Shown: in pieces, positions 1,641 through 8,883 of the stretch | Position numbering within the stretch: position 1 is the stretch's first letter | Layout of the letters: the number at the start of each line of letters is the position of its first letter | NCBI GenBank assembly: GCA_021850485.1 | Contig: JAJZLY010000004.1 | Coordinates: 1 to 25,220 of the forward strand | Length of the DNA: 25,220 bases | DNA from: Bacillota bacterium | Lineage (GTDB): Bacteria > Bacillota > Sulfobacillia > JAJZYS01 > JAJZLH01 | Direction of reading: 5' to 3' | Position numbers and translations under genes: made by a program | The notes under the pieces: generated by a model | Databases searched by the model: none | Seen by the model: the letters and a program-made list of their open reading frames with translations, nothing else | What the model was told of the DNA's origin: nothing

Positions 1641-1817
1641 ATGGCCCAGCCTCGGCAGAAGAGTTCCAAGTCGCTGAAGAACAAGCGGCGCGCCAACTGG
1701 AAGTTGAAGCCCCTGCACTTGGCGGTATGTCCGCAGTGCAAGCACCCTAAGATGAGTCACCGGGTCTGCCCGAACTGCGGCCATTACGCCGGACGGACGG
1801 CAGTCACCGTCGAGTGA
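1641..1817 (+). CDS. rpmF: 50S ribosomal protein L32
   Basis: A 58-residue basic protein beginning MAQPRQKSSKSLKNKRRANW, with a C-terminal zinc ribbon of two CxxC pairs (CPQC and CPNC) and the ending CGHYAGRTAV typical of the zinc-binding (C+) form of L32. It is a component of the large subunit near the peptidyl-transferase region. The ATG at 1641 follows GGAAAGGA at 1624-1631. It is co-transcribed with yceD and followed at once by a terminator, so the pair forms its own short operon. Confidence 0.97.
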   Translation: MAQPRQKSSKSLKNKRRANWKLKPLHLAVCPQCKHPKMSHRVCPNCGHYAGRTAVTVE

Positions 1818-1820
1818 TCC

Positions 1821-1853
1821 ACAGGCGGGCCTGGTTGGCCCGCCTGTTCTCTT
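1821..1853 (+). terminator. intrinsic terminator after rpmF
   Basis: ACAGGCGGGCC (1821-1831) pairs perfectly with GGCCCGCCTGT (1837-1847) around a 5-base loop, giving an 11-bp GC-rich stem followed by TCTCTT. It lies 4 bases past the rpmF stop and separates yceD-rpmF from the fatty-acid operon. The T tract is short but the stem is very stable. Confidence 0.85.
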
Positions 1854-1881
1854 GAATCGCCGCTAGCGGTCGGTGTATAGT
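1852..1881 (+). promoter_or_regulatory. promoter of the fapR-fab operon
   Basis: TTGAAT (1852-1857) and TATAGT (1876-1881) are separated by 18 bases and lie immediately after the terminator stem. The -10 runs into ATAGTTGGTCCTAA (1877-1890), whose right half GGTCCTAA is the reverse complement of TTAGGACC, one base from the half-site TTAGTACC known for FapR. The site could therefore be an autoregulatory operator, but the left half is degenerate and the spacing is shorter than in the Bacillus operator. The promoter call is good; the operator call is weak. Confidence 0.7.
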
Positions 1882-1916
1882 TGGTCCTAAGACGTGCTGA
1901 TAGGCTGGAGGGCGCG

Positions 1917-2456
1917 ATGGACCTCAAGCAACGCCGGCTGCAACTCGTGCAGGCACTGAAACAGGATCCGCTGGTCACCGACCGGGATTTGGCCAATCGG
2001 CTGGCGGTCAGTGTCCAGACCATCCGCCTCGACCGGTTGGCACTGGGCATTCCGGAGGTGCGGGCGCGGGCCTGGCGGGTGGCGGAGCAGGTGCTTGAGC
2101 CGCGGCCGCTCAGGCCAGCTGGCGAACTTTTGGACATCGTGCCCGGGGAAAGCGCACTGTCCCGGCTGGTCACCGAGACGACGGGGGCCGACTTGGATCG
2201 AGGACTTCCGGCGCACTCGCTGTTCGCCCAAGCCGAGGCGCTGCTGCGTGAGCTGGTGCCACCTGGCAGTGAGACCGGACTGTGCCGGATGAAGTTTCGG
2301 CGAGCCGTTCGGCCGGGAGAGGTTCTGGTCGCTAAGGCAGAAGTGATCCGACGCCGAGAGGGACGGTGGGTGATCTTGGTCACCATCCGGTCCACCCAGG
2401 AGGAAGTGTTTCGCGGCAAGTTCGTGGTGGCCGTGGCAGTGGGGGAGTCGGCATGA
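1917..2456 (+). CDS. fapR: FapR, malonyl-CoA-responsive repressor of fatty acid synthesis
   Basis: The N-terminal DeoR-like helix-turn-helix contains VSVQTIRLDRLALGIPEVR (about residues 32-50), the diagnostic FapR motif. The rest is a hot-dog-fold effector domain (GELLDIVPGESALSRL ... HSLFAQAEALL), which in the family binds malonyl-CoA and releases DNA. The ATG at 1917 is preceded by CTGGAGGG at 1905-1912, giving 179 residues, close to the usual 185-200. It is the first gene of fapR-plsX-fabD-fabG-acpP-fabF-rnc and overlaps plsX by ATGA. It probably represses its own operon when malonyl-CoA is low. Confidence 0.95.
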   Translation: MDLKQRRLQLVQALKQDPLVTDRDLANRLAVSVQTIRLDRLALGIPEVRARAWRVAEQVLEPRPLRPAGELLDIVPGESALSRLVTETTGADLDRGLPAHSLFAQAEALLRELVPPGSETGLCRMKFRRAVRPGEVLVAKAEVIRRREGRWVILVTIRSTQEEVFRGKFVVAVAVGESA

Positions 2457-3457
2457 GGATTGGCGTCGATGCCATGGGCGGCGATTTCGGGCCGGCCGAG
2501 GCAGTGCCCGGTGCTGTCGCCGCTTGTCGGGACTTTCACCTGGCGATAACCTTGTTCGGTGATCGGGATCTGCTCGATCCGCAACTGGAGCAGGCCCAGG
2601 CCAGCGGCCTGGACATTCAGGTGGTGCACGCGCCAACTTGGGTCAGTGCCGACGAGGGACCGGTCCAGGCCCTGAAGAAGAAACCGGACTCTTCGATTGT
2701 CTGCGGCATGCAGGCACTGAAAGATGGCACTGTCGATGCCTTCATCTCGGCGGGCAACACCGGGGTGCTGGTCTCCGGCAGCATGCTGCTGGTGGGCATG
2801 ATGCCGGGGCTGAGACGGCCGGGGCTGGTTGCGCTGTTGCCCACGCTGAAGCGGCGGCCGCTGGTACTGGTCGATGCGGGAGCGTCGGTCGATCCCAAGC
2901 CAGAACAGTTGGTGGACTATGCGGTGGTGGGCAGCATCTACGCTGAGGAGATCTTGAAACGGACCAATCCGACCGTCGGCCTGATCAATATCGGCGCCGA
3001 GCCCGGCAAGGGAAACGAGCTTTCCCGGCAGGCCCACCAATTGTTGCAGGCGGCACCGGTGCACTTCATCGGCAACATCGAGGCCAGGGAGATGCTCAGT
3101 GGGGATGTCGACGTGGTGGTGGCGGACGGCTTTGTCGGCAACGTCATCCTCAAATTGGCGGAAGGGATGGGGATGGGACTGTTCGGGCTGATGGCAGCGG
3201 AGATGCGAAAGTCGACCTGGAGTCGACTCGGCGGCATGATGCTGCGCTCCCGGCTGCTGGGGCTGCGCGCCATGATGGACTATTCGGAATACGGAGGAGC
3301 GCCACTGTTCGGTCCCCGTCAGCCGGTGATCAAGTGTCACGGCGCCTCGCACCAAGACGCCTTCAAAAACGGCGCCCGGCTGGCGGCTGAATTCGTCCGG
3401 CTGGATGTGGTCGGACGCGTGCAAAGCCGCCTGCAGGAGGTGGCGCACGGTGAGTAG
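2453..3457 (+). CDS. plsX: phosphate acyltransferase PlsX
   Basis: Converts acyl-ACP and phosphate to acyl-phosphate, the donor for PlsY in phospholipid synthesis; it is peripheral at the membrane. The 334-residue protein opens with MRIGVDAMGGDFGPAEAV and carries the family motifs SAGNTGVLVSGSMLLVG, NIGAEPGKGNE and DVVVADGFVGNVILKLAEG. The start overlaps the fapR stop as ATGA, indicating translational coupling. In most Bacillota fabH follows plsX, but here fabD follows directly with an 8-base overlap. Confidence 0.97.
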   Translation: MRIGVDAMGGDFGPAEAVPGAVAACRDFHLAITLFGDRDLLDPQLEQAQASGLDIQVVHAPTWVSADEGPVQALKKKPDSSIVCGMQALKDGTVDAFISAGNTGVLVSGSMLLVGMMPGLRRPGLVALLPTLKRRPLVLVDAGASVDPKPEQLVDYAVVGSIYAEEILKRTNPTVGLINIGAEPGKGNELSRQAHQLLQAAPVHFIGNIEAREMLSGDVDVVVADGFVGNVILKLAEGMGMGLFGLMAAEMRKSTWSRLGGMMLRSRLLGLRAMMDYSEYGGAPLFGPRQPVIKCHGASHQDAFKNGARLAAEFVRLDVVGRVQSRLQEVAHGE

Positions 3458-5455: not shown

Positions 5456-6691
5456 GTGAAGCGACGGGTGGTCGTGACGGGCATCGGTGCCCTCACCCCG
5501 CTCGGTCTCTCCGCAGCCAGCAGCTGGCAGGGGGCGCTGAGCGGACATTCCGGCGTCCAGTTCCTACCCGACATGGCGGCAATCGGCCTCACTACGGCAA
5601 TCGGGGGCCGGATCGAGGGATTCGATCCGGCCCGCTTCCTGCAGCCTAAGCAGATTCGGCACATGGACCGTTTCGCTCAGTTGGCCATTGCCGCTGCCGA
5701 AGAGGCGATGGCCGACTCTGGGCTGCTCGGAGCTGGCTACGACTTGGAACAGGTCGGCGTGCTGTTTGGGTCGGGCATCGGCGGCATGGTCACCTTTACC
5801 GAACAGCACGAGGTGTTCTTGCGGCGGTGGGATCGGGTCAGTCCCTTCTTCATCCCGATGATGATTCCGAATATGGCCTCCGGTGAGGTGGCGATTCGGT
5901 GGGGCCTGATGGGTCCGAACTCCACAACGGTGACGGCCTGTGCATCTTCGGCGTCGGCCGTCGGTGAAGCCTTCCGGCTGGTCCAGCACGGCGACGCACC
6001 GGCGATGTTGGCCCTGGGTGCCGAGGCGGTGATCATTCCCTTCGCCTACGCCGGATTTTGCTCGATGAAGGCGCTGTCCACCCGCAACGACGCTCCGGCC
6101 GAGGCGTCTCGCCCATTCGACCAGGCCCGCGACGGCTTCGTGATGGGCGAGGGAGCCGGATGTCTGGTGATGGAGGAACTGGAGGCCGCACTGGCCCGCC
6201 ATGCGCCTATTTACGGTGAGATCGTGGGCTACGGGCAAAGCTCGGACGCCCACCATCTGGTGGAGCCGCGACCGGACGGCAAGGGCGCTCTGTTAGCCAT
6301 GCAGCGGGCCTTGGCCGACGCCGACTTGACTCCGTCCGATGTGGACTACATCAACGCCCATGCCACCTCGACGCCCAAGGGCGACGCTGGCGAAGCCAGG
6401 GCGATCGCCACCTTGTTCGGGGCCGATGGGGGCCAGGTGTCGGTCAGTTCCACCAAATCCATGACCGGGCATCTGCTCGGTGCTGCAGGGGTGGTGGAGT
6501 TATTGTTCTCCCTGCTGGCGATTCGCGATCAGGTAGTGCCGCCGACGATCAATCTGAGTCAGCCGGATGCAGACATTCATCTCGACCTGGTACCCAACGT
6601 GGCCAAGGCCCGGCCGGTGCGCGTCGCCCTGTCCAATTCCTTTGGCTTCGGCGGCCACAACGTCTCACTGGTGGTGGCCCGCCTTGCCTGA
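5456..6691 (+). CDS. fabF: 3-oxoacyl-ACP synthase II
   Basis: Condensing enzyme that adds malonyl-ACP carbons to acyl-ACP. The 411-residue protein has the thiolase-fold Cys-His-His triad: Cys162 in TVTACASSA, His in INAHATSTPKGD, and STKSMTGHLLGAAG. The C-terminal SFGFGGHNVSLVV is also typical. Start GTG 5456 follows GAGGAGTGG (5442-5450). It is the only condensing enzyme in this cluster, so initiation (FabH) must be encoded elsewhere. Its end overlaps rnc by 8 bases. Confidence 0.97.
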   Translation: MKRRVVVTGIGALTPLGLSAASSWQGALSGHSGVQFLPDMAAIGLTTAIGGRIEGFDPARFLQPKQIRHMDRFAQLAIAAAEEAMADSGLLGAGYDLEQVGVLFGSGIGGMVTFTEQHEVFLRRWDRVSPFFIPMMIPNMASGEVAIRWGLMGPNSTTVTACASSASAVGEAFRLVQHGDAPAMLALGAEAVIIPFAYAGFCSMKALSTRNDAPAEASRPFDQARDGFVMGEGAGCLVMEELEAALARHAPIYGEIVGYGQSSDAHHLVEPRPDGKGALLAMQRALADADLTPSDVDYINAHATSTPKGDAGEARAIATLFGADGGQVSVSSTKSMTGHLLGAAGVVELLFSLLAIRDQVVPPTINLSQPDADIHLDLVPNVAKARPVRVALSNSFGFGGHNVSLVVARLA

Positions 6692-8162
6692 GGTGCCGTG
6701 GGAAGACCCCCTGGTGCAACTGGCCCTCACCCATCCCTCATCGGTCTCCGAAGGAAGCGGCCAGGAGGACAATCAGCGGCTGGAGTTTTTGGGAGATGCC
6801 GTGTTGGGGCTGGCCATCGGCCAGACGCTCTTCCGGCAGCTGCCCACCGACCAAGAGGGTCCGCTCAGCCGACTGCGCTCGCGCCTCGTCAGCCGGGAGA
6901 TGCTGGCCGAGATGGGGGAGCAGCTGAATCTGGTCGACCGGCTGAAGGTCGGCCACGGCGAGCGCCTGATCGACCCGGCCGCCCGCCAGCGAGCTCTGAC
7001 TGATGCCTTCGAGGCATTGATTGGTGCCCTGTTTTTGATCTGGGGCTATCTGCCGACCCAGGCCTGGGTGCTTGAGGTGATGGCTGAACCGGTGGAGGCT
7101 GCGGTCAGTGGACTGGATGATGGCCGCGATCCTAAGTCGATGCTGCAAGAGGCCCTGCAACATCGCGGCACCAGCCCGATCTACGATGTACTTGAGAGTC
7201 TTGGCCCCGCCCACCGGCGGCGCTACCGCGTGGTGGTGAAGGCCGCTGGCAAGGTGATCGGCAGGGGCGAGGGTCGTACCAAGAAGGTGGCTGAGCAAGA
7301 CGCAGCCAGAGATGCACTGGAGCAACTGGCCAAGGCGGATCAGCCAAAGCGGCGGCGACCGGTGATCAAGAAGCCACCGGCCTCAGGCGTGTTGACCCTG
7401 GTCAAGACGGGACCTGAGCCGCCAGGCGGTCAGCCGCCAGCGGCGACAGAGCTGGAGCCCACCGCGCCTGTCCGCCCGAGCCGATCGCGCCGGCGGCGCA
7501 AGCCGACATCGGCCGTGCTGGTGCTGCCTGCAGCTCCGGCCGCAACGGAGCTTCGTCCGGCTGGGCCAGCGGTTGACGGCACGACAGCACCGGCACCAAG
7601 ACGCCGGCGCAGGCGCAGTGCGGCCAAAGCCGCTGTCAGTGAGACGGCGCGAGACGAGGCAAATATGTCCCCGCCCGATGCCGACCACGAAATGGCGCCA
7701 GACCCCGCTGTTGCCCTAGCGCCAGCCACGGCCGCAGCCAAGCGCCGGCGCAGGCGCTCTCGAGCCAAGCATCCGGCCCCAAGTGTGCCAGCACCGGCCC
7801 AGGTGGTGGTCGTCAGTACTGCAGCCGCGGTCCCGGCAGCGGCCGCTGCCGGCGGCACAGCCAGTGCGCCACGGCGGCGGCGGCGGCGGGCCAAGCATCC
7901 GGCGAGTCCGTCTGGCGCGGGGCCGAGCAGCGGATTCGTGCCCAAGGCATTGCTCGCTCAAGCGCCGGCAGCGCCCGGCCCAGATCCGATCGCGCCAGCA
8001 GCAGCCAGCGAAGGCCCGGCCGCACAGCCGGTTCACAAGAAGCGGCGCCATCGCGGCGGTCGCAGACGGCACAAGGCGGCAGGCGGTGCTCCGGCCGCCG
8101 CTGCCCCGGCGATGGCGCGGGAGCTAGAGGAATGGGAGGCCGAACGGCCGGAAGATGACTAG
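6684..8162 (+). CDS. rnc: ribonuclease III with a long basic Ala/Pro/Arg-rich C-terminal tail
   Basis: Cleaves double-stranded RNA in rRNA and mRNA maturation. Residues 1-140 or so hold the RNase III domain with NQRLEFLGDAVLGLAI (Glu34, Asp38) and DAFEALIGALFL (Asp and Glu near 107-110), so the four metal ligands are present. A double-stranded RNA binding domain follows (DPKSMLQEALQ ... GRGEGRTKKVAEQDAARDAL, to about residue 214). The remaining 278 or so residues are low-complexity, with five Arg/Lys clusters near residues 265, 306, 353, 395 and 452 separated by Ala/Pro linkers. Usual RNase III is about 230 residues, so the tail doubles it. Start TTG 6684 has GGTGGTGG upstream; GTG 6693 is an alternative, and both give a slightly short N terminus. 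Confidence 0.93.
   Translation: MPEVPWEDPLVQLALTHPSSVSEGSGQEDNQRLEFLGDAVLGLAIGQTLFRQLPTDQEGPLSRLRSRLVSREMLAEMGEQLNLVDRLKVGHGERLIDPAARQRALTDAFEALIGALFLIWGYLPTQAWVLEVMAEPVEAAVSGLDDGRDPKSMLQEALQHRGTSPIYDVLESLGPAHRRRYRVVVKAAGKVIGRGEGRTKKVAEQDAARDALEQLAKADQPKRRRPVIKKPPASGVLTLVKTGPEPPGGQPPAATELEPTAPVRPSRSRRRRKPTSAVLVLPAAPAATELRPAGPAVDGTTAPAPRRRRRRSAAKAAVSETARDEANMSPPDADHEMAPDPAVALAPATAAAKRRRRRSRAKHPAPSVPAPAQVVVVSTAAAVPAAAAAGGTASAPRRRRRRAKHPASPSGAGPSSGFVPKALLAQAPAAPGPDPIAPAAASEGPAAQPVHKKRRHRGGRRRHKAAGGAPAAAAPAMARELEEWEAERPEDD
7602..7902 (+). repeat. short direct repeats within the rnc tail
   Basis: CGCCGGCGCAGGCGC occurs at 7602-7616 and 7743-7757, and GCCAAGCATCCGG at 7764-7776 and 7890-7902. They encode the repeated Arg-cluster segments (RRRRR ... 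AKHP) in the same reading frame, suggesting the tail grew by internal duplication. Confidence 0.7.
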
Positions 8163-8746
8163 CGCCGACGCGGCGGTGTCGGCTCTGTGAGCAGGGTGAC
8201 GGCTGCCAGGATCGGTCCAATGACCGGCGGCAACGGCGGCTCTATCAGACGGCCAGTGCCTTCGTCCAACAGCAGCAGACGGTCGCCAAAGCTCAGCTGA
8301 CGGGCGATGCACGGTTGGCCGTGCACCCAGAGCAGGAGCGTACGGCTCAACTGACCCAGTACATCGCCGATCACCAGCCAGTCACCAGCCAGCACGACAC
8401 CGCCCGTGGGGGTTTCGGCCGGCAGGCGATAGAGCAGGCGAGCGCCAAACGGCCAGGTGAAGGGCGGCTCCTGGTCGCTGAGCAGGGGCACGCCGTCGGC
8501 GGCGAAGCCTTCCGCCACCACGGCCTGCCCGTAGGCGGCCAACGGCTGGCTGACCACGCCGAAGGTGAGTCCGAAGGCACCGGACAAGACCGCATCTTTG
8601 AACCCGTTGAAGGTGAAGCCATCTTTGCTCAACCAGTAGTAGACCGACTTCGGCTCGGCGTACCCGAGGGCCTTGGCCACGCGCCGGGCTGAGATCGACG
8701 GTTGCTGGCGGATCAGGGCGGCGATGCGGTGCGTAATCTGCTGCAA
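8159..8746 (-). CDS. helix-turn-helix regulator with LexA/S24-like C-terminal domain
   Basis: A 195-residue protein. Residues of about 14-50 (SARRVAKALGYAEPKSVYYW, then LSKDGF) form a helix-turn-helix of the type fused to S24 peptidase-like domains. The C-terminal part GGVVLAGDWLVIGD ... LLLWVHGQPCIARQLSFGDR resembles the beta-rich LexA core, but the Ser and Lys of the catalytic dyad are not at the expected places (Thr/Gly and Ala instead). It probably does not self-cleave. The start is TTG 8746 because AAAAGGAGA lies 5-13 bases upstream; an ATG 13 codons earlier (8785) has no ribosome site. Its stop shares CTAG with the rnc stop on the other strand. Targets are unknown, and spoVS and the gene itself are the nearest candidates. 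Confidence 0.7.
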   Translation of the reverse strand: MQQITHRIAALIRQQPSISARRVAKALGYAEPKSVYYWLSKDGFTFNGFKDAVLSGAFGLTFGVVSQPLAAYGQAVVAEGFAADGVPLLSDQEPPFTWPFGARLLYRLPAETPTGGVVLAGDWLVIGDVLGQLSRTLLLWVHGQPCIARQLSFGDRLLLLDEGTGRLIEPPLPPVIGPILAAVTLLTEPTPPRRR

Positions 8747-8883
8747 GGCCGTCTCCTTTTCCCTGAACCTACAAGCGCCTTCCATAGGCTCTGAGGGCTC
8801 CCCTGTGTCTTGGGCGTATCCAAAACACGCACCCGAACAGGGTATAGGTAACTGGGCAGGGGAAGCATTTCGGCTTGGCGAAC

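Follow-up and report, generated by a model that had tools for sequence, protein, structure and literature searches.

A genus-specific C-terminal tail with arginine blocks on an otherwise ordinary class-1 RNase III

The rnc gene of a Bacillota genome encodes a ribonuclease III (RNase III) in which a complete enzyme is followed by a long Ala/Pro/Arg-rich tail. This tail is genus-specific: all three known species of the genus carry it, and it was absent from every other genome sampled, most of which belong to Bacillota. As far as our searches go, it represents an undescribed genus-specific variant on an otherwise ordinary class-1 RNase III, and the open-licence papers searched describe no tail of such kind on a bacterial RNase III. 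The explanation that we favor, with a probability of about 0.6, is that the tail is a lineage-specific disordered arm acting as a multivalent RNA-binding tether on the enzyme.

The gene lies in a window of 25,220 nucleotides, the whole stretch of DNA analyzed, which belongs to a 1.6 Mb assembly that is 97% complete. Its frame (6693..8162, forward strand, 489 amino acids) is open throughout, from a GTG start at 6693 directly preceded by the fabF stop codon (6689-6691) to its own stop codon at 8160-8162. Residues 1-216 make up a complete RNase III with one catalytic domain (residues 6-130; 6708..7082; Pfam PF14622 and PF00636) and one double-stranded RNA-binding domain (dsRBD; residues 147-212; 7131..7328; PF00035), the latter folded with high confidence. 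These are the only families that pass the Pfam and NCBIfam cut-offs in the product, and TIGR02191 matches residues 7-212 above its equivalog cut-off. The signature of the catalytic domain, NQRLEFLGDAVLG, carries E31 and D35, with E55, D104, and E107 coming after; E31, D35, E55, and E107 are invariant in a 24-sequence alignment, and D104 is present in the window enzyme. Judged by its domains and catalytic acidic residues, the product belongs to the canonical class-1 RNase IIIs of bacteria, in line with the complete catalytic and dsRNA-binding part reported in a preliminary description of this DNA.

Canonical bacterial RNase III (TIGR02191; PDB 2a11, 1o0w, 1yyk) shares these domains and catalytic residues as well as the gene neighborhood, but its sampled members stop at the dsRBD, whereas the window gene adds 275 residues. 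The gene order fabF, rnc, a small reverse-strand ORF, and smc is common to all three species, the small ORF separating rnc from smc within a fabF-rnc-smc-ftsY neighborhood. No Rfam match at gathering scores was found within the window. Among solved structures, those best matching the product in sequence are human Drosha and bacterial RNase IIIs, 2a11 among them. The similarity to Drosha covers the catalytic and dsRBD sequences, but the second RNase III domain, helicase, and PAZ domain of the Dicer/Drosha enzymes are missing. A doubled enzyme of the Dicer/Drosha type can therefore be rejected, and with a single RNase III domain and a single dsRBD the term "doubled," as used in the preliminary description, is misleading, since only the length is doubled; its judgment that the protein is unusual does stand among the RNase IIIs sampled. 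Membership in the RNase E family was also rejected, as the product has no RNase E/G catalytic domain and the RNase E/G of this genome is a separate gene.

From the rnc frame and its domain limits it follows that 7326-8159 is an in-frame extension beyond the dsRBD. The tail itself (residues 215-489; 7335..8159) has a net charge of +27, matches no Pfam family at E-values up to 1, and lacks a predicted fold. It begins with a small basic block, QPKRRRPV (block 1; residues 217-224, with KRRR at 219; 7341..7364), and continues with five large Arg/Lys blocks. Block 2 is SRSRRRRK (residues 263-270; 7479..7502), with RRRRK at 266 in the window, and is the block that is weakest in the species YP3; block 3 is RRRRRRSAAKA (residues 303-313; 7599..7631); block 4, which among the simple blocks is the best conserved, is KRRRRRSRAK (residues 350-359; 7740..7769); block 5 is RRRRRRAK (residues 394-401; 7872..7895); and block 6 is HKKRRHRGGRRRHK (residues 448-461; 8034..8075), which contains RRHRGGRRR. 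With block 2 counted from its RPSR start at residue 261, the spacing between the starts of successive large blocks is 42-54 residues. There are 15 six-residue windows holding 5 or more Lys or Arg, whereas 2,000 composition-preserving shuffles averaged 0.2 such windows and never exceeded 5; the five regularly spaced, in-frame basic clusters described earlier are thus borne out. A further element, GFVPK (residues 414-418; 7932..7946), is a candidate short linear motif.

An AlphaFold model built from a 24-sequence alignment separates the two parts clearly. The ten-residue blocks of the core have mean pLDDT values of 78-98 up to about residue 220, while the tail beyond residue 230 is modeled as coil without secondary structure, with pLDDT mostly 38-52, as would be expected of the disordered tail that the preliminary description had proposed.

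The genus comparison covers three species: the window genome, MAS3 (MAG MAS3.bin100; rnc at L005:3001-4458), and YP3 (MAG YP3.bin27; L006:3001-4467). Homologous tails occur in both congeners, whose rnc products are 485 (MAS3) and 488 (YP3) amino acids long versus 489 in the window. Identity among the three species is 93-94% in the core and 38-47% in the tail, yet the tail is nearly equal in length (271-275 amino acids), similarly charged (+27 to +31), and of the same Ala/Pro/Lys/Arg composition. The number of blocks is equal and their positions nearly so in all three species, although the linkers have diverged; the large blocks start at about residues 261/256/264, 303/313/302, 350/353/347, 394/394/391, and 448/453/447 in the window, MAS3, and YP3, respectively. 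GFVPK, surrounded by a divergent linker, and RRHRGGRRR (residues 451-459) are invariant in all three. The Arg runs are encoded by different codons in each species, which suggests selection at the protein level. Values of dN/dS are 0.05-0.09 for the core versus 0.28-0.42 for the tail, where synonymous sites are near saturation. Inside the tail, the blocks have a lower nonsynonymous divergence (pN 0.20-0.29) than the linkers (0.42-0.50), while synonymous divergence is similar in the two. This contrast arises partly by construction, because Lys/Arg content across the three sequences was the criterion for choosing block columns, and better evidence is for this reason provided by the conserved spacing and by GFVPK, which is invariant. 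The conservation evidence for a function of the tail comes from these three species.

In each of the three species the tail frame is free of stops, whereas both of the alternative forward frames are interrupted by them. A sequencing error in the frame, or a fusion of rnc to noncoding DNA, had been raised as a possible artifact, but three separately assembled genomes agree on the open frame and the tail, and both versions of this idea are therefore rejected. An antisense ORF (7430-7945) was likewise considered as the true gene and rejected, because its translation has no tblastn match to the congener loci (E <= 1e-3), while none of the three species has a stop in the sense tail.

The tail contains exact DNA repeats of 15 nt (at 7602 and 7743) and 14 nt (at 7764 and 7890), which the preliminary description had taken as a sign of recent internal duplication. 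The repeats exist, but the duplication is unsupported. When codons were exchanged at random between positions encoding the same residue, which keeps the protein and its codon usage fixed, a longest exact repeat of at least 15 nt arose in 7% of permutations (P = 0.07), and the longest exact repeats in the two congeners are 11-12 nt. The repeats are thus within chance, and as the three species have their blocks at corresponding positions, any duplication must predate the species split.

Outside the genus, RNase III matches were found in 10 of the 12 genomes from other families of the same order, and those read in the forward direction end at about 209-218 amino acids. The preliminary description had named a stop near residue 220 in relatives as an observation against the tail; such a stop is absent from both congeners, and it is the other families of the order that stop near 210-220. 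Across 136 RNase III ORFs, some of them redundant, the median C-terminal remainder past the match is 7.5 amino acids and the longest remainders outside the genus are 87, 64, 61, and 54 amino acids, a measure that comes out too short for some tails of the genus itself, where the match extended into them. The 87-residue remainder has no Arg blocks. A full-length profile searched against 141 genomes of the class found the whole tail free of stops in the three congeners only, and the same was true among the 150 matches listed for a sample of 398 genomes from the phylum. In the sampled loci and plasmids of other phyla, RNase III tails are short or absent, and in the plasmid collection the matches listed are to the RNase III core only, covering about 43% of the query.

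Shorter extensions were nonetheless observed on other RNase IIIs. Three from a single family of the same class (L151, L152, L163) also have an Ala/Pro/Lys-rich extension past the dsRBD, but it is only 61-87 amino acids long, lacks Arg blocks, and is probably independent of the tail described here. The three extensions end alike in an AGAxVAAAxxPR motif, and that of L151 contains tandem KGPAIKGPAVKGPAV repeats. Two other Bacillota RNase IIIs (L107 and L113) have Arg/Lys-rich ends of 16-19 amino acids (GSRRRRQVHKK and RFRGNRKRHKK) that are possible small-scale parallels to the tail.

Within the genomes of the genus, a profile of the tail matched only rnc and no second protein in the three species, and over nine genomes of the order it matched nothing except the rnc of the genus. 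Searching with the single tail sequence gave just weak matches, in asparagine-synthetase-like and ribonucleotide-reductase loci, and a DNA pattern for the Arg runs gave matches not above a reversed-pattern control. With no other protein matching the profile, the tail is, as far as searched, particular to RNase III in these genomes. Other ribonucleases of the genus are differently built: RNase E/G is a short form in all three species, with a conserved domain past the catalytic part and no disordered tail, and RNase Y is also present, with no C-terminal extension in the window genome, where its end coincides exactly with that of the family model.

The RNase E-type tail is the textbook case of a disordered arm that organizes an endonuclease, and the likeness to RNase E drawn in the preliminary description holds at the level of architecture; the recruitment of RNA or partner proteins, which it also proposed, is inferred. 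The noncatalytic region of RNase E combines disorder, biased composition, and repeats with short conserved microdomains, of which AR1 and AR2 are Arg-rich and bind RNA, and such microdomains are also used for partners (PMC4435900). In Caulobacter RNase E, Arg-rich charge blocks together with RNA drive condensation (PMC10412687). Like the RNase E enzymes that carry the gamma-proteobacterial AR1/AR2 region or the Caulobacter BR-body tail, the rnc product is an endoribonuclease whose C-terminal region is long, disordered, and biased in composition, with short Arg-rich elements conserved amid fast-evolving, divergent linkers. The catalytic families differ, however, and the rnc tail has no membrane helix or known partner motif, its blocks being separated by largely neutral Ala/Pro linkers. 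The likeness between the tail and the RNase E noncatalytic region is most likely one of analogy and not of homology.

On the basis of this matching anatomy and the Caulobacter condensation, multivalent RNA binding that retains substrates close to the dimer is the most likely role of the tail. The catalytic dimer (dimerization is taken from the family) and its dsRBDs would recognize and cut dsRNA, while the two 275-residue arms per dimer would hold structured RNA (for example, rRNA precursors or sense/antisense duplexes), with the evenly spaced blocks making electrostatic and Arg-phosphate contacts to it. The arms could in this way raise the local concentration of substrate and perhaps drive RNA-dependent clustering, with GFVPK and the HRGGRRR element being the best candidates for specific contacts. 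Against this reading, the RNase III of relatives has no such tail, which is therefore dispensable for basic enzyme function.

A less probable reading is that the tail serves as a scaffold, its blocks together with GFVPK and HRGGRRR docking ribonucleases or helicases, so that RNase III would be the organizing center of a condensate or of a complex resembling the degradosome, the RNase E/G of this lineage having no scaffold tail. RNase E recruits partners through microdomains of this kind (PMC4435900), and the invariance of GFVPK amid a divergent linker would suit such docking, as would the short RNase E/G of all three species and the lack of an extension on RNase Y in the window genome. No RNase E partner motif was identified in the tail, however. 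RNase Y, a known scaffold in Bacillota, is moreover present in the genome, and we consider it doubtful that RNase III, rather than RNase E or RNase Y, scaffolds an RNA-processing body in this genus. Were this the case, two Arg-block arms per dimer would condense structured RNA and recruit partner enzymes, and the RNase E tail strategy would have been invented independently on a dsRNA-specific nuclease.

Counting against the RNA tether, DNA, ribosomes, acidic proteins, or membrane lipid would be equally plausible ligands of poly-Arg blocks. The tail might then target RNase III to ribosomes, to the nucleoid in a histone-like manner, or to acidic membrane lipid, near nascent pre-rRNA. Its charge and composition suit any polyanion, but the AlphaFold model predicts no amphipathic helix or other secondary structure and Pfam gives no match to a DNA-binding family, and we regard this targeting role as quite unlikely. 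Very improbable is a nearly neutral low-complexity extension with little function, produced by loss of a stop codon and expansion in a GC-rich genome. The fast-evolving linkers and the confinement to one genus would fit, as would the scarcity of stops in GC-rich sequence, though a base-shuffled tail of the same composition was open over 275 codons in just 1.5% of cases; the length, block number, and block positions kept in three species, and the two invariant elements, speak against it.

With RNase E/G tail-less in this lineage, a genus-wide tail of the RNase E style on RNase III would mean that such an arm has arisen independently. Its function can be probed because the tail-less relatives provide natural controls, and deleting or transplanting the tail could reveal what such arms do.

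Several other features were observed in these genomes. A 554-aa ORF without a Pfam match (1784-3448, reverse strand) adjoins the fatty-acid synthesis genes in the window. A 208-aa ORF (8159-8785, reverse strand) runs convergently to rnc and shares 4 bases with the 3' end of that gene; it has no Pfam or NCBIfam match, an N-terminus that by eye resembles a helix-turn-helix, and 81% and 69% identity to its two congener counterparts. Elsewhere in the window genome (L053; contig C2 near 164,200), a ribonucleotide-reductase ORF carries what by eye is an apparent in-frame intein-like insert, starting with CVTGDTLVAT and ending with VHNC ahead of SEYLFLDNSACNLAS.
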